Assembly: GCA_947034885.2 (NCBI GenBank)
Contig: OX344750.2
Span: 13,324,053 to 13,388,052 of the forward strand
Origin: Thuidium tamariscinum
Lineage: Eukaryota > Streptophyta > Bryopsida > Hypnales > Thuidiaceae
Direction: 5' to 3'
DNA length: 64,000 nucleotides
Below are positions 39,594 to 55,171 of the stretch, one piece after another; position 1 is the stretch's first letter, and the number at the start of each line of letters is the position of its first letter. A program made the position numbers and the translations under genes. Below the pieces are notes generated by a model. It saw only the letters and a program-made list of their open reading frames with translations. It did not search any database and was not told where the DNA came from.

Positions 39594-39604
39594 CCCTTTG
39601 GCAC
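39594..39604. repeat. 11-bp target-site duplication, left
   Basis: CCCTTTGGCAC, repeated exactly at 55161-55171. MULEs typically duplicate 8-11 bp, so this fits. Confidence 0.85.
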
Positions 39605-39740
39605 AGGGTTGCTAGCGTGTGAGCCTGGGAGTGTGAGCCTGTGAGCCTGTAAGCCTGTGAGCAGGAACTTTTTTTTTCCAAAAAAGTGGATGAGGATCTG
39701 TAACCGTGGATTTACCTATGACCGTGGTTTTGAAAAATCT
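39605..39740 (+). repeat. Left terminal inverted repeat of the MULE
   Basis: Five GTGAGCCT-like units lie in the first 65 bp, then an A/T tract, then AACCGTGG and CCTATGACCGTGG. These mirror the right end at about 54960-55160. The repeated octamer is a plausible transposase-binding array. Confidence 0.75.
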
Positions 39741-39924
39741 ATACTGTTTTTGGATTGTTAGGGTTTAGGGTTAGAAATTCTTATCTAAAAATTTGGGGTT
39801 CATCAAAATAGCTTGTATTTCCAAATTTTGGATGAAAAAAATTGAGTAGCCTTAGGATCATATGTTTGTTTCCATTCTTCACCATTTATTTCTTGGAAGT
39901 ATACTGTATTTCGAGAAACATGAA

Positions 39925-40470
39925 ATATTGTATTCACTCACCCATTATTGAAGACGGAGACCTTATAAGAAGTGAATATTTATTTCATTCCCCATTTTTT
40001 TGGTCAGAGACATTGTAGGAAGTCAATATTGATTTCAGTCCCCATCTCGTATGGTAGAGACATTCTAGAAGGTGAATATTTTTTTCTTTCCCCATTTTTT
40101 TTGACGAAGATTTTCTACGAGGTGAATGTCTATTTCAATGCCCATTCTTTGGGATGGAAGCATGGAAGGAGGTAAATATATATTTCACTCCCAATTTTTT
40201 TTTCATGAAGACAATGTAGGAGGTTTATATTTATTTCACTCCCCATTTTTTTTAAAGATATTCCAAGAGGTGAATATTTCTTTGAGTTCACCTTTTTTGG
40301 ATGTAGATGTAGTATGAGGTTCTAGGGATTTGACTCCCCATTTTTTTTAATGAAGAGAATGTACGAGGTGATTAGCTATTTCACTCCCCATTAATTGCAT
40401 AGAGACTTTAAAGAAGGTTAATATTTATTTAAATCCCCATTTTGTTGGATGCTAACTTTGAAGGATATGA
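39925..40470 (+). repeat. Subterminal degenerate minisatellite, ~50-57 bp period
   Basis: About ten units built from GAGGTGAATATTTATTTCAC, then TCCCCATTTTTTT, then a variable GAAGACATTGTAG-like part. The CCCCAT words fall near 39990, 40042, 40097, 40141, 40243, 40345, 40386 and 40435. It lies between the left terminus and the 3' end of the methyltransferase gene. Confidence 0.65.
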
Positions 40471-40603
40471 ATATTATTTTTTTGATGCTAACTTTGAAGG
40501 ATATGAAAATCACTCAACATATAGCCATAAAGCACACAAATCCAATCATAATAAAAATCCAAACATACTGATTTGACTTATGAGATACGTCAATCTCATG
40601 AGT

Positions 40604-43600
40604 CTAATATGCAGTAGACTCCGCTGCATAGTCCCTATCACTAGAAGAGTCTGAAGTCTCTCTACCTTCCGATGCTGATCCATCTATGAATTCTAAGACA
40701 TTTAGAGCGTACGAAGGTTTACGGGATTTAGGTTTGGAAGTGCCAAACTCCGCAAACGCTGATGCTAGTTGCTCTGCATAGACTGGAAGATCGAATGGCT
40801 TCTCTGGGCTCAAAATGAGTCTTCGTCTCTTCTTTACTTGGTCCTGCGCGATCACTCCTTCGCTGCTGTAAATTCAATGGAAACATTGTTAGATGTATGA
40901 AACATAAATTAAATCAAGAATTTGAGAAAATTGAATTTAGGAAAAACTTACTTACTAGGTTTAGGGCGCCGAACAAATTTTCGAGGTACTATCACCATGG
41001 CCTCTTGGTCTTGTGATAACACAACTGTGGGCTCCTCCACACTTGGATCTGCGGTCACTGGAGAAGCAGACTTCTTCATTGGCAAGAGGACATGCTGGAA
41101 AATCCTCTTATCTTCCTCCAACGCTACAATATGCCTCCCGGTAGCACGGCAAGCAGTAATGGATGCACCTGCCAAAAACCATAATTTACATCATCTACAT
41201 AATGATCTTCTATAAAAATAATTTCATTGTGCACAAGTTGTAGAACAAGAATTCACCTGTAGAGGCAGTGCAGTCTACCACAATGTCCCCTTCATCTGTG
41301 GTGCCCTTTATGATGAATTGAATGAAGCGTGGGTCCTTCTCTCGAGCTCCTCACCACGCCATTCGATCCATGTCATTCACCAACATCGTGTCCTCTGTGG
41401 TGTAGTTCATGAGCAAGTCATCACGTCGAAGGCATACCTTTGCCTTCAGCATGGTCTGAGAGCGCCTGAATTCAAAGTTCGATTTCCCCTTGGCTCCCAG
41501 ATGTTTGACAAAAAGGGTGATGCCAAACTTCAATGTCTGCAGGCATAATCAAAACTCACATGAGATTAGAAAACAATAAAAAGCAACAAATTCAAATATA
41601 TTAAATTATTATAATGAAATGATAGAGTCTTACCGTTTGGTCGGGGTGAACTGCTGATGTAAGGTGCATCCGATTCATGCCCATCCAGTCCTTCTTCTTC
41701 TTGATGTTTGGATACTCCTGAAGAAGTCCTGCAATGGTTTCCAAGGAGTCCTGGCCCCAAGAATGAAACACTACAAGGCACCCATCGTCCTGCAAATGTT
41801 TGTGTGCAAAGTTGAAAGCCTGGAAAATTGTAAAGTAGTCCTTATCTGCGTTCCAATAAGGAATGTGCTTCGACCCCCCTATCTCTGGCACTGGCAAGTT
41901 CTCCTGGCAGTCAAAGATCATGAGATCAAATCCTGGCTGTCGATTGACGACCCCATCATACACCCTGGCCTTACCTACGACCATCTGCAAGAACATTTCT
42001 TCAATACATGAGTATTTCCAAGAACAAGTTCAGAAAATAAGCGCTTGTTAATCAAATAACAATCTCCATTGCTAAGAGAAAGAAGAAAATTACCTTTTGT
42101 AGAAAATCCATGACCTCTGTATAAGGGTTTGGTCCCCGGACTCCTTCGTTGTCCACCACCTCTGAAATTGAGACATCAAGAAGCAATTCCTCTGAGGTGA
42201 CATCATCATCATCTCCAAGAGCAATGACTTGTGTACCTTGTGTTATAACCTCCTCCGAGAAGTCTGGAAGTACAGACTTCCTCTTCAACCCACCTTGTGA
42301 TGCACCCTGCATCTGGGAGCCCTCATCCACTGCAGACGACGTTGGAATGCCACTTCCTTCTTCCTTCTTCTTTCCTTTACCTTTCTCCTTCTCCTTGTCC
42401 TTCTCCTCCTTCTCCTTCTCCGCCAATTTGGCCAAACGCTCCACCTCCTTCTTCTCCTTATGCTCCAAAGCCAGTTGAATCCGTGCTGCCTTCCTCCTGT
42501 CCATGGTCTCCCTCTTTGCAATAGCCCTCTTCCTCTCATTCTCACTAAGTCCTGGAAACTCGTCAACGTCCATGTTGATGGTACCTTGTCCTTCCAAAGA
42601 AGCCCGCAACTCTACCTCTGACGGATGCGTGTAGGAGATGGGGCAGTCAATGTACCATCCACCACCACTGAGATGTGAGGTAGTGAAGGTCTTGAGCTGA
42701 GTCGGAGTATACATGCAGTCTTTGGAGTTGCGGTCCAGAAAATTCTTCAAGAAGGTAGGTAGGTCCTCAGTCTTGATTGCTTCTTTACCTTCGAGCTCAT
42801 ATTTGAAGTACCTACAGTTTCAAGAGGATTCAATAAATACAAATGATAAAATTCAATCTCAACTACCAAATGATTTGACAACCTCTTTGAAAGGATACCA
42901 ACTACAAAGTATTTTTTCTAAATTCTCAATTTGAGATGGGAAATTTTAGTTTCAAAGTCTGCAAGGGACAAGAACTAGGGGGGTCCTTGAGCAACGTCCT
43001 TGAGGTAGCTCGGATCCGAGCTAAGTCTTGAAGGTAGGTGAAGGACCCCCCCAGTTTTTGATATCCTACATGATTTTTTGATTTTCACAAATTTTTTTTT
43101 GGGTGATCACATGCAAGAATGGACTTTTCATTCCTCATAATTCACTCTAAAATCGCAGTTTCACATGAAAAAAAATTAAACTTTGAGACTTCAAGTTTTG
43201 CAAGGAGCAAGAACTAGGGGGGTCCCTCATCATTCTCCTCAACATAGCTCGGATCCGAGCTATGTCGAGGAGGATGCTCAAGGACCCCCCTACTTTTTCA
43301 TTTCCTACTTCAATTCAAGATTTTTTTGAAATTTTTTTTGTGCCCCAATGCAAAGATTGACTTATAGGACATTCAATAACTATAATGTCAAACATGAGCT
43401 ATGATTTTTAGAGACTCACCGGAAAAGAACCCTTCTTACTGCCTGCTTTGATCCCTCAAAGGTGTTGAAGTTATCGCTTTTCTTGAAGTAGTTAGCTCCA
43501 TGAAGATGAGCTAGAAATCCTTGATCCCAGATCTTTGTTCTCCAACCTTCCAAATAGTCAAGGAGAGTCTCTGGTTTCTGTGGAACGTTCATATCTATAG

Positions 43601-45392
43601 GTATGTTGTCATGCCTCACAACACCCTCAAAAATATCCACCACTGCATCCTCAATCTGGATCAAAGAAAAAAAGAATTACAATTCACATGATTCAAAGTA
43701 CTATGCCTCATGATTAGAAAATTCAAATTATTATAAACATCAAATACAGAAATTGTTAAACTTGAAAACAAACTTCAAAGTAAGTTACTTACCCCAGCAT
43801 ACCAAACACAACGGTTTAGAAATGGTCCAAGTAGTAGCTCAGACACTGGCCTAGGTGGGAAACGCCTTGCATCACGTGAGGGAATAGAAGAGTTCCACCA
43901 CTGCAAGAATTTGATCTTGTGAGCTGCCGTTGTATTGCACGTTGCAACCATTTGGAGTTTCTCGAGAGTCATCTCGGGAACCTCATTTGTAGTCCAGTGT
44001 TTCTCAACCTGAAAAAAATGATGTGAGATTCACACTTCTAATTTTCAAGGTATAGACCATTTGCTTAATTTTTTGAAGTATGCAAAGTAGTTACCTCTTT
44101 CAAAAAGTCGGGCTCATTAGCCGGATTAGCAACGGCGGCCAATTTTGACATCTTCACATTGAGTTTTCCAGTCCTCTCATGTGCTGTAGATCTCATAGCG
44201 TGAGCAAGTCCCTCCGCAGTTTTCTTTTCCTCAGGCGTGATCTCGTTGTACTTTTGTACTGCAGCATCTGCGGCTTGAGAAATCTCTTGTTGCACATTTC
44301 CAAGGCCAATCAATGTGAACAAAAGCTTTAAGAACAAAACTGAATATACTAAAATGCATTGTATTGAAAGGAAGAATTATCACAATAATTTCATACTCGA
44401 AAAATGAAGGATGTGAAGACCTCAAGTGGCATAGAATACCACGTCTTCCTCAATTTATGTGCAGAACAGCGTTTAAGCTCAGATGGCCTCAACATTTCGT
44501 TGAAGCGCTCTATGGGTAAAAGCCCATACTTCTGAACCCTATAAAGGGTATGAACCAAATTGGTCTTCACGTGTGAGCCCTCTGTAGACCTGAAATTCAA
44601 CAAGGCTTTATAAGTATATGCATTTCATATTATATAAGCGAAGATGAAATAGTTTCAAAATTTTCTAAAAACATAAAACAAAACTTCAAAGACCAAATTC
44701 AAGTAAATAACTTACTTGTTAATGTCATGCATGACATGCATAGCTACCTCGATTTTGCCCTTTGTGTCCAACACAATTGAGTCCACTGCATAGTGCCAAG
44801 TTATGTCCTTGGAGTGCAGCCGGGAAATATGATTCATCCATGACAGCAGGCGGTGATTCCCGTCACACACAAAGAACTTCAAGTTCTTCAAGAAACTCAA
44901 TTCGGGAATAGACTGGATGTGGGCTTCAAAGATCTCATTCTTCTCTCTCCATAAAGGCCCCCATTTCTCTATCTCTTCCTCTGTGAATTTGGAGCTTTCT
45001 CCGGCTTCATTTGTGGTTGTGACATAGAAAATTGCTGCCCCGTCGAGGTAGTCCTTTGCAAATTTGTGTTCAAGCAATTCAAGATCGCAAGACAAAGTAG
45101 GTCTTACCATGGGCATCGCTACCATCCGGCACAAGGGAATTTGAAGCCGAAACAGATGATCAGGCTTCATCCTCAAGCCTGCAATGGTATTCACAGAGTC
45201 TACCTTGTGATATTGGCGGAGGTCATCCTCCAACAGGTCCTTGTCATCTTCATCCATGAATTCCTCCACCATGTCTTCACTTGTGACTCCTCTCCTCGCT
45301 TCACCACCAATGGGGGGTTGACTTGTAACATCCATGTTTTGGATTTCCATGATAGTTTCTTCTTGGGAAAGAACTACTGGAGACACTTCCAT
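40604..45392 (-). CDS. ParB-like domain + permuted SAM-dependent DNA methyltransferase, ten exons
   Basis: Exons on the minus strand: 45392-44716, 44589-44397, 44325-44095, 44008-43793, 43655-43420, 42811-42094, 41984-41634, 41536-41257, 41168-40952, 40865-40604. All junctions are GT-AG and the sum is 3,381 bp (1,126 residues plus stop). Residues ~70-225 look ParB-like, with FFVCDGNHRLLSW (DGNHR at 177-181) in place of the ParB GxRRxxA motif. A Lys/Glu-rich segment lies at ~595-665. Residues 776-786 (FDLMIFDCQEN) sit where motif IV belongs. Residues 957-968 (GDIVVDCTASTG) are motif I. This is the motif IV-before-I order of beta-class N4/N6-adenine/cytosine methyltransferases, often joined to ParB in phages and bacteria. 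DCQEN replaces the usual D/N/SPPY, so activity is uncertain. KKRRRL near the C-terminus suggests a nuclear protein. An in-frame TGA (41351-41353) interrupts clearly coding sequence. ATG 45392 directly follows an acceptor, so upstream exons may join in phase 0. Confidence 0.7.
42973..43057. repeat. GGGGGTCC-AGCTCGGATCCGAGCT palindrome, copy 1
   Basis: The outer arms AACTAGGGGGGTCCTT and AAGGACCCCCCCAGTTT enclose the 16-bp perfect palindrome AGCTCGGATCCGAGCT at 43007-43022. Confidence 0.8.
43212..43296. repeat. Palindrome, copy 2
   Basis: AACTAGGGGGGTCC and GGACCCCCCTACTTT arms. The centre extends to CTCAACATAGCTCGG and its inverse, making the strongest stem of the set. Confidence 0.8.
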
Positions 45393-45583
45393 CTGCAATA
45401 ATAAAACACCCATAAATGTATGACCACAAGCCTACCTTTATAACACAAAAATGCAAAGAAGAATTCAAGTTGAATTGAGAGATAAACTTTCAAAAGATAG
45501 AGTACATAAGTAAAACATTAATTTTGAAATATGTAAGGCTTTATAGTGCCATTTGAATATAAAACTTTTTGGAAAAACAGAAC

Positions 45584-48080
45584 CTAGTCAATCTCTACAT
45601 CTTCCTCAGAATCTGAGCTGAGGTGAATGAAGACTGGAACCTGTGGACCTATAGGACCACTGCAAGCACAAGTACATGTCTCTTGCAGTGGTGGACCATC
45701 AACAGTGATGGAGACCTGCGACTCAGAGCTATACTCAGTCTCTAAGCTCTCTGAAGACAAACACCTAAATCCCTTTTTTCTAGCAATCTCAGCAAGCCTC
45801 AAGGCATGCCTTCGCCTTCCCGCATTTGGGTCACTGACACGACTAAGCACAGAGCTCTGGAAAGCATCTACCGCATGCTCAGCGGCATCCATGACATCTC
45901 CAAAACTTACCAAGTCTGGTCCTCCTGCCTCCCCCTTATCACTAGAGACCTCCTTACTTGGGCGCCTTGATGTAGGAGTTTGTAAGGGTCCTGCTTCATG
46001 AACAATAGGGCCTCTTGGGGGCTCTACTACAGGTGAAGATGAGCCTGCACCATCACCTCTCTGTTTGAAACACAAAATACAGAACAATACCTCATATTAG
46101 CTTCCACTACCATAAGAAAGAAGTATGCAAAGAATTTTGATCGAAATTATTTAAAAAAAAAACAAAGGTCTTACAATGGCAAATAATGAATTGCGAAATT
46201 GAACCCTCTTAAAATATAAACTTTGAAGTCTTATCAAACAAAAAACTCTAGAGGATATAAGAATTTTATAAATTTTACCAATTTTTTGATTTTCAAAGTA
46301 AATTATCTTAAAACTGCCTAAAAGCGTCGTTCTTAAAAAAAAAATCACTCCAGGAAGACAAATTTTTTTGCTTGGTCAGAAAATAAGGGGGTCGGGCCAC
46401 GTCACGTCCGATGTGGCCGGACCCCCTCACTTTCTGGCCAGGCAGACAAACTTTCTGCTTGGTCAGAAAATAGGGGGGTCCGGCCACGTCACGGCCGACT
46501 AGGCTCGGATCCAAGCCACGTCGGACGTGACGTGGCCGGACCCCCTCACTTTCTGGCCTAGCTGGAAGAGAAGCGTCTGGAGTTCTTCTGGGACTTACAC
46601 CGCAGTTAAGAAACTGAATCAAACGAAGCTATTCTTTTTGGAAAAGATTCCATGAAACCAAAACGCTAGATGGATCCAAATTTTTTTTAAGAGTACTGGA
46701 AATTTAAAACCTAACAAGAACTACTTGCTCTCTCTCTTCCCTCTCGATTTCTCAATTTCAACGGACAAAACTGTCAATTGATTCTAGTTCGGCTTGCTGA
46801 TCGATACTTGGAGATTCGGAAGCAACAATAGAACACAGAAAGATTCTCGAGCAAGTAAGAACCAAATCATGAACTGAGGGGGTTCTGGTGAGTTAGTCAT
46901 GACCTAGCTCGGATCCGAGGCAGGTCAGACTGCATTTGGCTGGACCCCCTCGCATTTGAGCATTCGGAATGCAACAAGTCAGACAACCAGCGCCACATAA
47001 AAAAAAACCAAATACTATTTGTATTATCTGAGGAATATGGGGACTGGTATTTTGACAAATCCAGAAATGCTTTGCATAATTTGAGAAGCACGGTTGAAGC
47101 TGCTACGGATGGAGCCGAGACTACAAATCAGAAATCGTGAAGAAATGAAACCCACGGCATCGCGTGGAAAGAATCTCGAGCAGGCTCTCGGACTGAAATC
47201 CAAAAAACTCCGAACCACTTCGAAACAAGGGGGTCCTGCGGCAATTCACCTGTTTTAGCTCGAATCCGAGCTATAACAAGCTAGACTGCCGAAGACCCCC
47301 TCAATTAATGAAAATTTTGATTTCCCAAGCTCTGTATTCATGACCTGATGGTTGGTTTTGTCAAACTGTTGAGATCAAGAAAACAGGCACACGGAATGAA
47401 GTGGATACTTTCTCAAGCAGGTACTGAAAGATGAATCTAAAAATCCTCGAACTCTTACGAACAAGGGGTCCTGTTGATCTACAGCTAGTCTTGCTCGGAT
47501 CCAAGCTAAAACAAACCAAGCAGACCAAGACCCCCTCACTTAATGAGAAGTCTGATTTCAGAAGGTCGTTGTTCGTGACTTGAGTTTCTGCATTGCCCAA
47601 CTGGAAACGGCAAGGAAGCAAAAGTCCAGAATCGCGTGGACAGTTCTCAAGCAGGTACTCACACAAGAGAAAGAAAAACTCGAAACGCTTACAAACTAGG
47701 GGATCCTGATGTACTGGATCTGTACTAGCTCGGATCCGAGCTAAAGCAAGGCAGACTAACGAAGACCCCCTCACTTCTTGAAAACTTTGATTTCGCAAGG
47801 TTTGTATGCATGACTTCTAGATTCGGTTGACAGCTTGATCTCAAGAAATCAAGTCTTCACAGTACCCAAAACCCTCATTCAACATGCCTTGTTGAGGGCA
47901 TCACAAGTTAGGAATCTAAATCTGTACACAATAACAAGGCCACAACGCAGAGCGTGAGACTGAGAAACAAAAAACGAAAAGAAAAGAAGTGTGTACCTGC
48001 TCTGTCATTTGAATCTTGCTTCGTGGAGTTGGCGGATCTCCAGCGCCATCCCTTGCGCGACTCCGTGTAGATCTCCTCAT
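45584..48080 (-). CDS. Small two-exon nuclear protein with C-terminal SUMO-interacting motif
   Basis: Exon 1 is 48080-47997 (28 codons, ATG to donor CAG|GTACAC). Exon 2 is 46060-45584 (158 residues, acceptor TTTCAAACAG, stop TAG). Total 186 residues. The N-terminus is basic (MRRSTRSRARDG). The middle is Ser/Pro/Gly-rich with a short AEHAVDAFQSSVLSRV helix. A Cys cluster ETCTCACSG precedes the C-terminal VFIHLSSDSEEDVEID. A hydrophobic V-I-x-L core followed by Ser/Asp/Glu is the standard SUMO-interacting motif. It ends only ~190 bp upstream of the methyltransferase ATG, and exon 1 ends in phase 0. Exon 1 could therefore also splice directly to the methyltransferase exon at 45392. Separate gene versus alternative 3' product cannot be settled here. 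I recognise no homologue. Confidence 0.5.
46386..46549. repeat. Palindrome pair, copies 3 and 4
   Basis: 46386-46430 has AGGGGGTCGGGCCAC and GTGGCCGGACCCCCT with no BamHI-like centre. 46472-46549 has GGGGGGTCCGGCCACGTCAC and its near-exact inverse around GGCTCGGATCCAAGCC. They are separated by a repeated GGCAGACAAACTTTCTGCTT-like linker. Confidence 0.8.
46873..46951. repeat. Palindrome, copy 5
   Basis: Arms GAGGGGGTTC and GGACCCCCTC, centre TAGCTCGGATCCGAGGC. Confidence 0.7.
47228..47302. repeat. Palindrome, copy 6
   Basis: Arms AGGGGGTCCTGC and GACCCCCTC, centre TAGCTCGAATCCGAGCTA. Confidence 0.7.
47464..47538. repeat. Palindrome, copy 7
   Basis: Arms AGGGGTCCTG and GACCCCCTC, centre GCTCGGATCCAAGC. 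Confidence 0.7.
47695..47771. repeat. Palindrome, copy 8
   Basis: Arms AGGGGATCCTG and GACCCCCTC, centre TAGCTCGGATCCGAGCTA. Confidence 0.7.
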
Positions 48081-48446
48081 GGTGGACTCCTGGTGGTTCA
48101 ACAATACTGAAGATAAGAACCTCGAACGGCAGGTAGGAGAAAGAGAGACGGACATTCTGAGAACGAGAAGTGAAGGTAGAGAGGGAAACAGCCGCGCCAC
48201 CATAATATGCGGCTTTCTCCGCATTCCAGGCTCAGCCTCTCATGCAAGTGGATTCGGTTGAAGGACTCGAGGAAGTCTAGATTCATCTGCATGCCGAAGT
48301 ACAGAGGTGCAGCCGCGCGGAGAAGTGGAATCGGCGCCGAGAATAGAAAACAAAATCGTCGATCAAAATTCTTGATCAGTCTCCACCGCGATCACCTGCC
48401 GTTCCGGTTTGGTCTGCCACATACAGACCGGCTTGAGTGGCTGAAG

Positions 48447-48526
48447 GCGCCACGTGTCAATCTCTGATTTGGAGATTCTTGTGTGGACAAGTCTAGCTCG
48501 GATCCCGGTCGACTGACACGTGGCGC
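48447..48526. repeat. Palindrome variant near the start of the minus-strand unit, copy 9
   Basis: GCGCCACGTGTCAATC and GACTGACACGTGGCGC replace the GGGGGTCC arms around AGCTCGGATCCCGG. It lies about 370 bp upstream of the ATG at 48080, probably in promoter or leader sequence. Confidence 0.65.
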
Positions 48527-48529
48527 AAT

Positions 48530-49500
48530 GTTATTCGACAGAAGATGTTTTCTCTTGCATTTTTATTTTTATTTTTTTAACGTCCTTGAACACATAGACT
48601 GAACTTTGAGATATAAAGCAAAATGGAAACGAGAATCTTATTCTTATACGAGATTATTATTTATTTCCAACGTAATGCTGGAAAGAAAATATTATTGTTG
48701 TATTAGGATTCTAAAGAGATTTTCTTATTTAGGAGATGATATGTGGAAAGACAAGGAAGAAAGAAAAGAGCCAGCAAAGCATAGAATGTTCTTCAATTTA
48801 GAGAGGCCTATTTTAAAAGAGCATAGATTGAGTACGGAAAAACAATCTCACTCAAATAGTTTTGAAAAGGATCATATAATTTTAATTTGTAGTTTTGATG
48901 CTTAAAGTGTTTAGGGTTTCTAAGTTTAAGGTTGTTTCATAATTTGAAAGGAAAGCCCATTGATTTGTTGAATACCAAAGAATTGGACTGTGCAAAAGAA
49001 TTGGAAAACAAGAGTGTGGTGTCAAGTACTTCATAGCATTCTCAAAACTTTGGAATGATTTCAAAAGTTTCCATCTATAGTTTCTAGCAACTATGGACAT
49101 AGATTTAGTATTTGCCTTCAAATATGATAGAGCGGTAATATTAAATGTTTCTTCTCTCACATTAACTGTTCTCATTCTGTCCTTCTTGAAAATGGAATTA
49201 CGAACGAAGAGTGGGACTACTATTAACAGTATCATGTTTCTCCTATATTGGAAGCTCATCTATCAATGACACTCAATCATGTTACTTTTAAACTTTGACT
49301 ATACCTAGCCTACCAAATGATGGTCATCTTTCCCATTGCGTGGACAGGGGATGGCTATGTGGATCACGATCCTTTTCATCGTATTGAATTCTATTCACTA
49401 GAAGTCTAGAACTGAAATAAGTACTTAAAATACTTCAACATTACAGAATCTGTGTTGCTGTTTCATCAGTAGTGCAAAACTAAGGGAGGAAACAAGAAGT
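48530..49500. other. AT-rich spacer inside the MULE
   Basis: Contains a 99-codon plus frame and a 125-codon minus frame (48882-49259). Both have low-information translations and no domain, so I do not call them genes. It may be the intron that separates the 49.5-49.8 kb exon from the rest of the minus-strand unit. Confidence 0.4.
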
Positions 49501-49521
49501 AGAGTTTCTAAAGAGTCTTAC

Positions 49522-49827
49522 ATTTCCGGAGTCTAGCACCTTCGCTTCTTGCTGAATACTTGTGTTGTCCACAACCGTCTCCTCCACTTCCTCTGTGCTG
49601 TCAATTGGAGCATCACTCTCCTCGGCAGTACTCCCTATTTCGAAACGCAAAGTTTGACGAAGATCTCTGGCTCTGGGTTGGGTAGTTTTCGGTGCTAACC
49701 TACTTCCTTTCTTCATTCTAGCACTCTTCAAAGCCTTAGAAGATGAGAAATAGAGAGACCTACGGCGCTTCCGTGCTCTCCCTTGTTTCAAACTAACAAG
49801 AGGAAGTGTCCTATCTTCTACGAGCAT
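49522..49827 (-). CDS. Basic first exon of a minus-strand MULE gene, partner unknown
   Basis: ATG at 49827 opens a 102-codon exon ending GGAAAT|GTAAGA, a strong phase-0 donor. The translation is basic (GRARKRRRSLYFSSSKALKSARMKK, nuclear-localisation-like when read in parts) and then acidic (STEEVEETVVDN). If unspliced it would stop 16 codons later. The frame is open further upstream to about 49920 without an ATG. Phase 0 matches the acceptors at 46060 and 45392, so it could be an alternative first exon for either minus-strand product. No family is recognised. Confidence 0.4.
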
Positions 49828-49929
49828 GAAGTGAGAAGCAAAAAACTGGCTAGCTATCAATCTCTCGCGCAACTTGTAAAGAAAAGTAGAAGAAGAACTG
49901 TGAAGACGCTTGGTGGTGCCTCCCTCTTA

Positions 49930-50587
49930 TGGCATAGTAGAGAATTCCAGTGAATTCGTCACATTAGGGTGACTTCAATGGAGGAGCGTGGGAGTATGCC
50001 GTCACATGTGTGAAGGGACCTAGTTGTAGGGGCGCCGCCAAAATCCAATTGAAAGATGCAGCGGTGGTCGTCTTTTTATTGTTAGGGTCTTTAAATCGCC
50101 GCATCCTTGCAATTCAAAAGTTCTTCCGCGTCAGCTTCTAGGAGCTCTGTCCTGTCAGATATTGAAGTAAAATTCCTGCAGTATTTTGCCGGCGCTATGC
50201 AATCGATCACATTTGAAAAATACAAATTAATAATCGGATTCCAGACGCCATTTTAGGTGTATTGCTACGCAATTAATCAGATGTGTCTGGCCTTCTCTAA
50301 TGAATACTTTATCGTACAAAAGTGCCTATGCTAGGCAGGAACGTCTTCCTATTAGGCTAATTGATTTTATTATGTATTCTACTTTGAGCTGTAGTGAGAA
50401 GATGGTCATTATTGAAAATGTTAAGCACTTCGGCGGACATTAATACAGGAATAGTGAATATATATCAGAGAAGGGGAGAACATGGTAAAGCTCAAATGAA
50501 GTGGTAGTTGTATTCCCTCTTACCTGATTAGCTATGTAGATTTCATTGTCTTCTCTTTCTTCTTCAATCCCTTAGCAAGGTTCCACG
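49930..50587. promoter_or_regulatory. Presumed divergent promoter region of the MULE
   Basis: It lies between the minus-strand first exon and the plus-strand transposase. AATATATATCAG at about 50455-50466 is a TATA-like sequence ~130 bp before the transposase ATG. A pyrimidine-rich leader (TGTCTTCTCTTTCTTCTTC) precedes it. Position is the main argument. Confidence 0.35.
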
Positions 50588-53500
50588 ATGGCTTCCATTC
50601 AAGTAGAGGGGTATGCGGTTCCTATTGTATTTCCGGTAGTAGATGGTGGATGTGCTAGAGTAGCGAGCCACCTTCTCCATGTTCGATTTAAGTTCCTAGA
50701 ATGCTCTATATATGTTGAGGAAGAAAAAATATCAGAATCAGGTGAAGTTTATCAGTCTGTTCCTATTGACATGTCTATAGAAGATGGATCACGTTGCTGG
50801 TACCTTCCTCTAGGAAACTACAGAGCATATGGGCTTCCATTGTCTGCACTGAGTGCATCTACTGAAATCCTCAGTCGCCAATCAGACAATTCCATTGTAG
50901 ATATGCCAAAACCACCACATGCCGTTGCACTTAGCCCACCTCTACATGCTTTGCCAATGAATGAGATGCGTACAGTACTTCGTAAGGTGAAAGTAGAGAG
51001 ATTAGATACTATCATAGAGTTGTCTTCCGATTCCGAAGGAGAGCCTGTAGATTGCAAGTCCAAAAAGCCTCATGCTTTTGTTTCCCTCGAATCGTGCAAG
51101 ATGGAAAGAGTAGAATCATTTTCCGATACTCCATCTAGAAGTCCCTCAACTTCGTCACTTCCACTTCCTCTTGTACACCCGTATGTAGCAGGGAGAGAAA
51201 GCATTATGGAATGTTTGAAGAGACTCGCTACAATGCGCCGGTCTTGCAACGAACTGTCGACAATGAATCTGGATACTCTGAAGCACCTTCAAGTTCCATA
51301 CCTTCCAGCAGTATTTGATGGAGATGTCATCTTTGAACTGCCCCCGTGTCGTTCATCTTCTTCCTCGACAGGTGCCCGAAACTTGGAGGGAATGGACAAG
51401 CGGTACGACGGACATCCGTGGTGCAAGCTCATGACAACTAACATCCACAACTCTGACAACTTGAAATTTCGTAAGTCGTATTGTGCTGGCCATCTCGTTT
51501 GTGAAAATCCGAATTGTGATTATTTGAAGAGAGCTTCTAAGAAAAATGAAACAGAGTGGACTGGCTATATTGTGTTTCCTTTTAGTCCTGCAGAGTGTCC
51601 ACCAGCAAATTCAACTCTAGTATGCAAAGTCTGCAAAACTTCACCTTCATGTCTTAGCGAATGCAAGGCAAGGATATACTATGCATATGCTGATAACCCA
51701 GAACTCAGTAGGGCTGCAATTCACTTTGGAAAGTACGAACACCCTGTTGCTAAAGGGATGTATAGGGATTCCACGGAAAGAATTTGCGGTCTCATAGCAG
51801 AGCAAGTGGCAAAGACACCCATGGCCACGAACTCTGCTATTGCTCTTTCTGCTAGTAAAGAGTTCTTAACGAACTACTTGTTCCACAATGGAGAGGGAGA
51901 TAAAAAGATGTTGAGGGAGGAAGAAATGGAGGAGGTCATGGATCGCTTTCAATACCTAAGTAGTCCAAGTATTCGTAATGTTATTTCTTTTTTCCGTTCT
52001 AACAACCGAGGAGGAGTGATCGACAACATTATGACTATGAAGAGAGAGTCTAAGTTCGAATTCATACACGACAGTGTCTTCCCTGGACAAGGGAAGGAGA
52101 AAGTATACATCTTCAAGATGCTTACTGAAGGCCCAGGGAGTGGGGTGGACCTCGTAAAGCGCATGCAAGAAGGAGGTGATCTTCAGAATGCTTGGTTGAT
52201 GTTTGACCACGTGAAGCGCGTGAAGGATTGGACCACAATGGCTTGCCACGTATATGATACTCAATACAAAAAGGTGATGACCATTGCTATTTGCGATATG
52301 CAATCCGAAGACACCGAGATTCAAGTACAGTTTTGGAGAAGCTTGAATATGGTAATGCATTCACATGGGGTGACTAATCCAAACTTCAAGGGATTTATGG
52401 CGGATAGTGCCATGGCCAATTGGAATGCGGTACGCATTGTGTACGGAAGCGGTTCTGCCAATGTTGCCATGGAGAATCGAGAAAGAACATGTTTGCTGCA
52501 TTGGAGTACCTCTCTCCATAAGCATACACAGAAGTACATCAAAGAAGCATTCCATCAACAACACATTTCATTGTGCAAGCAGTACAAGGACTCCAAGAAT
52601 ATGGACCAAGCAGAGATACGGTACCTAGCTATCCGGTCATGGTGGCTATCATCTGGAGCTGCCAATGAAGATGCACTTCTTCACTTGGACCATTGGCTAG
52701 CTTTTTGGCATTTTCGTTACCGGCAATGGGGAGGCTTTATGGACATGGTATATTTAATCAATAATTGCAATTTGTATACCAATTTGAAGTTTGAATTTAC
52801 ATTCTCTAATACAAAGTTCAGTTCAATGTAAAATCTGATTTCTGTTGAAGTGGAAGTGTAATTTTCTTTTCGAGTTTTTTTTTGAAATTTTTTTTTAATT
52901 TTGTACTTCAAGATATGGAAAATAGGGGGTCCGGGTAATACTCAATCTACATGCCTCAGATCCGACGGTTCTCATCCGAGTATCAGGATGACCCCCTCAA
53001 TTTTATTCCTAACCTCAAAAAATGAACATCAGTAGGTATGCAATTCAAATATATTTGTCTATGTAGACTAGATTTTTTTTGAATTAGTCTGATTTTTAGT
53101 AATTCAATACGGATATATCTTTCTACAATGAGAAGTCCTTGGAAGTCGTAATTACTATTGAAATGTGTATTCAATAGTGACCCTAATATTACAATCTAGA
53201 AGTTTGTTGTCTTTGGACTATAAATTTCTAACTATTTTGGAAATTTTTGTTCATTTGTAGAAGCTGAATCTTGAAGAGATGTTGGACTTACCATCGTGCA
53301 ATCTATCTGAAACGGTGCATAACAAGTGGCTACAAATGTCTGGAAAGCGAGGGAACAACTTGTTTGATGCAACATGTGATAGTATCCGTGCTTGGATGCA
53401 AATGACAAACTATCGTACCTATTTGAGAGGTCATGCATCAGGATCAGGGCCGTCTAAGGGTGAGTTGAAGCTCAGAGCTGCTAGAAGGAGCGGGGATCCC

Positions 53501-54646
53501 AAAAAAATTGCAGATGCTTTGAATGAATTGCCTGGTTCAGAAGGTATTGGAACTAGAGTACCGCACTTAGAGGGAGAAGAAATATTTGGGAGTATGAAGA
53601 GGAAGTTGGATGTGCCCATTGGCGATGCAGGAGATTCACATAGACCGGACAAAGTGAACTTTTCTCAACCCCGTGTTCGAACAAGGTCCACAACAACTTC
53701 TTCACCTTCTTTGCAAAATAAGGGTAAAGAATTAGAAGATTCTACTGTAGGACATGTTACGATTGCATTTGAAAGTGACTGCGACATATCTAAGTGGCAT
53801 ATAGCAAGGATTAGCCACAAATCCAACGCAAGATGTCAAGCTCAACAATAGAGATCCAGCATAAAGTGCACGTCAAAAATTGCAAGAGGAAAGAAGGGAA
53901 CTCCAGCTCCTACCTATCGTGGACGAAAAGAGGAATATGGCAGTAAGCGAGAGGTTGTGGCAGATTTCTGGTTCTGTTGGGACGACATTGAACGATGTGT
54001 AAAAGGTACAAAGCGGAAGTGGGTAATTGATTGGCCACAGGTCTCGGAGGTATGGCCTGTTCTGAGTGGAACCAATCTCAACTGTGAAGAGACATTGCTC
54101 TTGCAGCATGCGAGATTCCACCTCCAAGTACGTCCAACATTATCACCACGGCGATTGTTCAGCATGTCAAAGATTTTCACCACTGTTTTGTATGACGAAC
54201 CTTCACCAAAGAACCCGGACACGTATCCTACAGTCAGGAACAATCGAACCATTCAAAGGACGGTAAATGCACCAACTACAGAACAACAGAATAAATGGGA
54301 AAGTGCAGGGAATGTCAGAGGACAAATTTTGGAGGTCACATTACTCCCTTTTCCTGGACTTGGTGCAATTGTGGTACTTGAGATAGGGTCAGATTCTAAC
54401 AGGAATGCATATCGAGTTACACTAGGAATGTTCCCAACGTGCACATGTCTAGATTTTGTGAATATGGCTGTTTCAGCTATTGGTGGTCGTCAACAGTACG
54501 TGAATTGCAAGCACTTGTACTACTTGTATAGGTACTTTTGCAAGATGGATGTCCACGAAGACAAATTCATTCATGCACCAAGTTATAGCTTCAATGAGTT
54601 GAAGCTACTTCTACTCCGAGCGGGAATTATTGCAATTCCAGAATAG
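50588..54646 (+). CDS. MULE transposase with GCM-like zinc region, SIM and SWIM finger
   Basis: Exon 1 is 50588-52747 (720 codons, donor ATG|GTATAT). Exon 2 is 53261-54646 (acceptor TCATTTGTAG). Together 1,181 residues with one in-frame TAG (53849-53851). The N-terminal half has a SUMO-interacting motif, TIIELSSDSEGE (141-152), and a Cys/His region at ~279-390 (YCAGHLVCENPNC, CKVCKTSPSCLSEC, HFGKYEH) like the WRKY-GCM1 zinc fold of this transposase group. The MULE core follows: D557 in HVYDTQYKKV, D606 in FMADSAMANWNAV, and CLLH (635-638) equivalent to the conserved C-x2-H. The C-terminal part carries the SWIM finger CTC...CKH in TCTCLDF and VNCKHLYYLY. SWIM fingers are standard in MULE transposases. 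The TAG lies inside sequence open on both sides. It is either a true stop or is removed by a possible 105-bp phase-0 intron, 53747-53851. The start ATG is the first in frame and is preceded by a pyrimidine-rich leader. Confidence 0.85.
52748..53260 (+). other. Transposase intron with palindrome copy 10
   Basis: A 513-bp AT-rich intron. The palindrome at 52924-52997 has arms AGGGGGTCC and GACCCCCTC around a diverged centre, CTCAGATCCGACGG. Confidence 0.65.
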
Positions 54647-54950
54647 GCATGGCTAGATATGTTGGTCTACTTGAATTGCATTTATAAATATATATTATGA
54701 TTGCCATTTGGAGTGAATTCTCTTGTATTACAGAAGTATTCTAAACTATTAATGCATTCACAAAGTGTCACAGAATGTTTTATCAAAAAAATTTGTTGAA
54801 TTAAATTGAGATGTATGAATACAACATTTTTTCTTATAAATCCCTTGCTAGTTTTGTAGATAATGGATAAACTACATGCTGAAAATTTTCCCCTAAACCT
54901 TGAAAGGCCTCACTCTTTAGCGAATAAAAGTTAAACTCAAAAATATAACA
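54647..54950. other. 3' flank of the transposase gene
   Basis: AT-rich sequence with a TTTATAAATATATATTATG tract just after the stop, probably containing the polyadenylation region. No further gene. Confidence 0.4.
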
Positions 54951-54954
54951 TTTC

Positions 54955-55160
54955 ACCTAAACCACGGTTATAATTGACACGGTCATAGGTCATATTTTCA
55001 CTATTTTCCGTAAAAAAACCAACTTTTCAACCAAAAAAATGGGAAAAAAAAAATTTTCAAAAAATTTTCAATTTTTTTGGTTTCCAGGCTCACAGGCTCA
55101 CAGGCTCCACACTCGCAGCTCACAGGCTCACCGCTCCAAGCTCGCACACTAGCGTCGTTG
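54955..55160 (-). repeat. Right terminal inverted repeat of the MULE
   Basis: AACCACGGTT, CACGGTCATAGGTC, an A/T tract, and then AGGCTCACAGGCTCACAGGC and AGCTCACAGGCTCACCG units run to CACTAGCGTCGTTG at the edge. It mirrors the left end. Confidence 0.8.
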
Positions 55161-55171
55161 CCCTTTGGCAC
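55161..55171. repeat. 11-bp target-site duplication, right
   Basis: CCCTTTGGCAC, identical to 39594-39604. Confidence 0.85.

Follow-up and report, generated by a model that had tools for sequence, protein, structure and literature searches.

A MULE-like transposon family of the moss Thuidium tamariscinum carries a ParB-methyltransferase-like gene with a degenerate methylase motif

A 64,000-nt stretch of the Thuidium tamariscinum genome (hereafter, the window; assembly GCA_947034885.2, contig OX344750.2, positions 13,324,053 to 13,388,052) contains a 15.56-kb DNA transposon, at window positions 39604-55160, in which a predicted gene with a ParB-like and a methyltransferase-like part lies divergently from a transposase gene. 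This ParB-methyltransferase gene is an integral part of the transposon family and, judged from its codon substitutions, is under purifying selection, about as constrained as the transposase. Tentatively, we favour the reading that the window holds a defective member of a MULE-like family that is old and abundant and whose second protein recognises the element itself and serves, not as a methylase, but as an anti-silencing or transposase-assembly helper.

The preliminary description of this DNA had delimited the element by an exact 11-bp direct repeat. Indeed, the window has two occurrences of CCCTTTGGCAC, at 39594 and 55161, with none on the opposite strand, yet the true target-site duplication is the 10-bp sequence CCCTTTGGCA (left copy, 39594-39603, from repeat match and copy comparison; right copy, 55161-55170), the eleventh matching base being a coincidence because the element's own first C (39604) meets a C in the right flank. 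The element thus reads 5′-CAGGGTTGCTAG...CTAGCGTCGTTG-3′, with edges defined by the flanking duplications and by the points where inter-copy homology ends: relative to three other copies (whole or nearly so), the left limit was 39604 in two and 39644 in the third, which has a shorter array, and the right limit was 55160 in both copies whose far end was covered. With a threshold of at least 75% identity across 8-11 bp, 18 of the 20 elements examined at both ends were flanked by a 9-11-bp duplication (14 exact, four with one mismatch; two had none), and the sequences of these 18 duplications differ from one another. In a 21st, divergent element, CCTATGACCA flanks both sides as read by eye. Copy boundaries and duplications together bear out the earlier proposal of one transposon unit.

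Imperfect inverted termini, likewise proposed before, were found above chance (blastn, 1e-9). The 5′ terminus (39604-39662, plus strand) begins with CAGGGTTGC, followed by an 8-bp AGCCTGTG-type array (39614-39662 in TRF); subterminal motifs AACCGTGG and TATGACCGTGG (39702-39727, plus strand) have inverted counterparts near the other end. Both the period-8 array and CCGTGG motifs are inverted between the two ends, recurring in the 3′ terminus (54955-55160, minus strand). The 5′ array layout is also present in two other copies, C11_14841 and C11_12420 (the latter with a ParB exon 56% identical to that of the window), and a AGCCTGTG-type array was not found at the 5′ side of the C2_8151 stretch (ParB 54% identical). 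About 156 bp of the terminus retain 91-94% identity to the window in four copies, while the adjoining 750 bp cannot be aligned and the gene part is ~80% identical, which argues that the ends are constrained. A mosaic origin, considered for ends 98% and a gene 70% identical, is accounted for by this conserved terminus of ~156 bp.

In the 363-Mb genome (19 contigs), six matches to the LEAFY family SAM_LFY (best 1.6e-27; none in 14 control genomes) indicate a land plant or close relative, presumably a moss with ~11 chromosomes. To place the gene relative to the family, this genome was searched; only the best candidates were scored, and hence all counts are lower bounds. ParB exon matches amounted to 150 scored of 644 candidates. 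For 5′ ends, 40 of 232 candidates were scored, and 33 of these had a correctly oriented ParB match no more than 30 kb away, in 28 instances at 4.4-5.5 kb; for 3′ ends, 40 of 333 candidates were scored, and 35 had one within 45 kb. Among transposase exons, with 60 scored out of 1076 candidates, a ParB match lay within 35 kb in 52 cases and within 8 kb in 45, as compared to a mean of 0.155 and a maximum of 2 upon random placement (8-kb test, 200 draws); misses among the transposase exons may be over-counted, since 88 of the 150 ParB matches entered that test. This association with 5′ ends, 3′ ends and transposase exons rules out an independent host gene that happens to adjoin the element. Proposing a search of the same genome with the termini, the preliminary description had named as contrary outcomes copies consistently lacking the methyltransferase gene, or a single-copy host gene; the 52 transposase exons with a ParB neighbour and the 150 scored ParB matches, respectively, speak against these, and the terminus search itself returned the ParB exon and distinct duplications in the proportions given above. 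A real miss is the copy at C8:22868799-22896615 (L095; C8:22.87 Mb), whose two termini are present and flanked by an exact duplication; it still has a transposase exon, interrupted by two stops, but its middle is deleted together with the ParB exon. At another miss, C4:21.77 Mb, similarity stops beyond 0.8 kb within the 6 kb examined. As separate observations, the ParB-less C8 copy is possibly a derivative moved in trans, and of the 150 ParB exons that were scored, 51 fall on contig C11 (17.5 Mb; 2.9 per Mb versus 0.15-0.70 on C1-C9), for which a sex chromosome or another low-recombination chromosome is our guess.

The gene model, predicted from exon homology and splice signals, comprises ~10 exons running from 45392 down to 40604 on the minus strand, in the order ParB-like exon, linker exons, methyltransferase-like part. 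The ParB/sulfiredoxin-like exon with its CDGNHR motif (44716-45392) precedes linker exons at 44397-44589 (3′ splice limit presumed from conservation), 44095-44300 (5′ splice limit uncertain), 43793-44008 and 43420-43655, and an exon with a K/E-rich linker (42094-42811). The methyltransferase exons follow at 41634-41984, with DCQENLPVP at the position expected for motif IV DPPY, at 41257-41536, with the motif I-like DCTASTG and a premature TGA (41351-41353), and at 40952-41168, where the S-adenosylmethionine (SAM) motif continues (GASITACRATGRHIVALEED); the last exon occupies 40604-40865. ParB, methyltransferase and transposase exons lie where they had been placed before. Exon order, and likewise the splice sites inspected, are common to three copies with ParB exons 54-69% identical, complete methyltransferase splicing referring to the window and C11_12420 copies.

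Profile comparison points to the methyltransferase-like part being a homolog of N6/N4 DNA methylases, albeit below the Pfam cut-off: the spliced C11_12420 fragment matched N6_N4_Mtase (PF01555) with an E-value of 1.2e-4 and 22.5 bits (cut-off 26.7). Other searches gave less: CcrM in NCBIfam scored 0.0034, far below its cut-off; tblastn against phages returned weak, partial matches in 66 records (best E 3e-3 among 20 of the 66 matches listed), none covering 80%; phmmer with the spliced methyltransferase gave nothing below 0.25 and one DNA methylase (DpnA) at 0.96; and a PDB sequence search with the methyltransferase alignment gave nothing under E 0.56. Motif IV precedes motif I, an order that we take to be that of beta-class N6/N4 methylases. 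In N6/N4 methylases the catalytic motif IV is (D/N/S)PP(Y/F/W), and motif I usually follows an FxGxG-type pattern. Here, motif IV is DC[QP]E-like instead of DPPY in all 22 covering sequences (24 aligned), which makes ordinary N6A/N4C methylation doubtful and weakens the earlier suggestion that the element methylates its own or host DNA. An active base methylase that marks the transposon's DNA with N6-methyladenine or N4-methylcytosine, DC[QP]E being a tolerated variant, would accord with the homology to N6_N4_Mtase and phage methylases, with the strong selection on the methyltransferase exons described below, and with the self-modification idea raised by the authors of an Ectocarpus study in the part of the text available (PMC12477816). 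However, motif IV has no P in second place and no aromatic residue in fourth place in any of the 22 sequences, and motif I reads DCTASTG rather than the usual pattern, so that we consider an active enzyme rather unlikely.

For the ParB part, a structure model built on a 44-sequence alignment points to a ParB/sulfiredoxin fold, ParB/Noc-like; an 18-sequence model was unusable (mean pLDDT 35). DUF1015 matched weakly in 5 of 18 (best 5.6e-4) and 3 of 44 sequences (best 0.021) and DndB in one of 44 (0.032), both being families that we presume to be akin to ParB. The window's ParB exon itself had no ParB-type Pfam match, and a PDB sequence search with the ParB alignment gave nothing under E 0.048. 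The modelled fold, the ends conserved between subfamilies and the association with the transposase are all in line with a protein that has no part in silencing and is mainly a transposition co-factor, clamping or spreading in the ParB manner for end pairing, synapsis or target choice. A possible counter-case is the C8 copy, in which the ParB exon is missing although the two termini and an exact duplication are in place; such a role seems to us about as improbable as an active methylase.

Relative to C11_14841, the ratio of nonsynonymous to synonymous substitution rates (dN/dS) was 0.10 for the ParB-methyltransferase gene over 1036 codons (exon 4 missing), with 0.08 for its methyltransferase exons alone, and the transposase gave 0.12 over 1176 codons; these values are rough because dS is ~0.8-1.3. 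Against three close copies, dN/dS was 0.19-0.30 for the ParB-methyltransferase gene and 0.20-0.46 for the transposase; exon 4, which was misframed, counted as out of frame for these three and is absent from the remaining comparisons. Capture of a host gene as a passive passenger, as in Pack-MULEs, could appeal to the frequent gain of further open reading frames (ORFs) by MULEs (PMC6446971, in part) but is rejected as very improbable on the dN/dS of 0.10 together with divergent copies that keep the same exon order down to ~54% ParB identity, the host source having been sought only among the 150 scored matches.

The window copy itself looks dead, as both main genes contain stops, which the preliminary description had not mentioned. 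Of three copies set against it, two lack the transposase stop (53849-53851) and have an open frame there; the same proportion holds for the methyltransferase stop (41351-41353), beside which the third copy has another stop. A stop interrupts the ParB-methyltransferase exons in five of seven copies compared, indicating that many copies are dead; the other two are free of stops in the aligned exons.

On the plus strand, the first transposase exon ORF (50588-52831) contains the conserved residues D540, D606, C635 and H638, and the C-terminal part (53261-54646), in which the premature TAG at 53849-53851 falls, has a SWIM-like CxC...CxH arrangement; the Pfam SWIM match is below cut-off (E 0.11, 12.5 bits versus 19.6). 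A protein search found at least 58 relatives at 36-80% identity. Among the superfamilies known to us, MULE is the fitting one for 9-11-bp duplications, and by duplication length, ends and motif layout the element fits a MULE-like assignment. The features reported for the superfamily in the available part of PMC6446971 (8-11-bp duplications, inverted ends, a SWIM finger and an extra, often antisense ORF) are shared by the element, the finger as a SWIM-like arrangement; unlike MULEs, its transposase is not detected by PF10551. None of the 33 PF10551 matches in the genome fell on the 60 listed transposase places when compared by eye, and PF10551 was missing from the Pfam matches of 20 transposase alignment members. 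Alignment with hhalign to six MULE ORFs was not significant (E 0.15 at a probability of 0.4%, against E 0.7 for a ParB profile as control), although the expected D and C..H motifs were aligned. We therefore write MULE-like where the preliminary description had MULE: duplication length and motif layout fit a true MULE, but the PF10551 and hhalign results do not establish one. The words 'methyltransferase' and 'moss' have no occurrence in the main text of PMC6446971.

Returning to the self-recognising, non-methylating helper that we favour, the ParB part would recognise the element's own ends (the AGCCTGTG array and CCGTGG motifs) or a noncoding tandem array of ~50-bp units (39967-40444, TRF). 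The methyltransferase-like part may act as a SAM- or nucleic-acid-binding platform and not as an ordinary N6A/N4C methylase, and the outcome would be that the element is shielded from host silencing or that transposase assembly is aided. C11_14841 has a 48-bp counterpart of the tandem array, and TRF found no array of this type in the C11_12420 and C2_8151 stretches. A bolder version, in which a bacterial-type ParB-DNA-methylase became, in land-plant transposons, a protein that does not methylate but recognises the element and acts from its ends as an anti-silencing factor or clamp, we hold to be unlikely.

The favoured mode of action would be like that of VANC but built from unrelated parts, VANC having, to our knowledge, neither a ParB nor a methyltransferase domain. 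METTL14-type pseudo-methyltransferases have an N6-methylase fold whose catalytic motif is degenerate; the degenerate motif is shared here, but METTL14-type proteins are RNA partner enzymes of another methylase class, and the parallel is an analogy only. In Arabidopsis, the accessible parts of two studies describe VANDAL elements with VANC as anti-silencing protein (PMC10398659; PMC5735166) and tandem repeats as VANC targets (PMC10398659). An accessory gene and short tandem repeats in noncoding parts are features that VANDAL elements have in common with the moss element, and by analogy the ~50-bp array recalls the VANC targets.

The combination of ParB and methyltransferase is already known, since the Ectocarpus paper describes, in the part available, a ParB-like plus N4C/N6A methyltransferase gene opposite the transposase in the 21.5-kb element Sola1-1_Ec32, refers to cases from green and red algae, and proposes that the protein binds and modifies the sequence of its own element (PMC12477816). 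In both systems the two domains reside in one predicted protein, encoded on the strand opposite the transposase of a large DNA transposon. Sola1-1_Ec32 differs as a member of the Sola1 superfamily from a brown alga, whereas the present element is MULE-like, has 10-bp duplications and belongs to a land plant; its methyltransferase-like part has lost DPPY. Consequently, the cargo is not undescribed as such, as had been supposed; among the open-licence literature matches listed, however, no ParB-methyltransferase gene was found in a MULE or a land-plant transposon. As far as these matches show, what is new is the MULE-like element, the land-plant host, the hundreds of first-look candidate loci, the transposase-like selection and the lost catalytic signature. 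The occurrence of ParB-methylase accessory genes would thus extend beyond the transposons of algae to a successful MULE-like lineage of a land plant. The degenerate active site offers a clear, testable alternative to self-methylation, and the high copy number with divergent subfamilies makes experiments on specificity practical. TET/JBP enzymes occur in fungal transposons; if the bolder version is true, DNA transposons would have, beside these and VANC, a further route to manipulate host chromatin.

The remaining features of the element are minor. No tRNA or Rfam matches were found within the window, and the part from 46064 to 49135, which has dispersed short repeats, could not be aligned in two of three copies compared. 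Two further minus-strand ORFs look coding by their substitution patterns: a small acidic ORF (45584-46060), a separate gene or a 5′ exon, that ends in IHLSSDSEEDVEID, which we take to be like a SUMO-interacting motif, and a conserved ORF at 49483-49926, perhaps a 5′ exon of a minus-strand gene. Each had a dN/dS of 0.30 against C11_14841 and 0.34-0.55 against two copies; against a near-identical C1 copy, with few changes, the values were 2.86 and 1.98, respectively. An I-x-L-S-S-D-S-E stretch, presumably resembling a SUMO-interacting motif, is present both in the small ORF (IHLSSDSEEDVEID, 45584-45640) and in the N-terminal part of the transposase (IIELSSDSEGEPV). Finally, a GTAAGT at 45905-45910 inside the small ORF would, as a splice donor, link this ORF in frame with the ATG of the ParB exon (45392), so that the two ORFs might be joined in some transcripts and kept apart in others.
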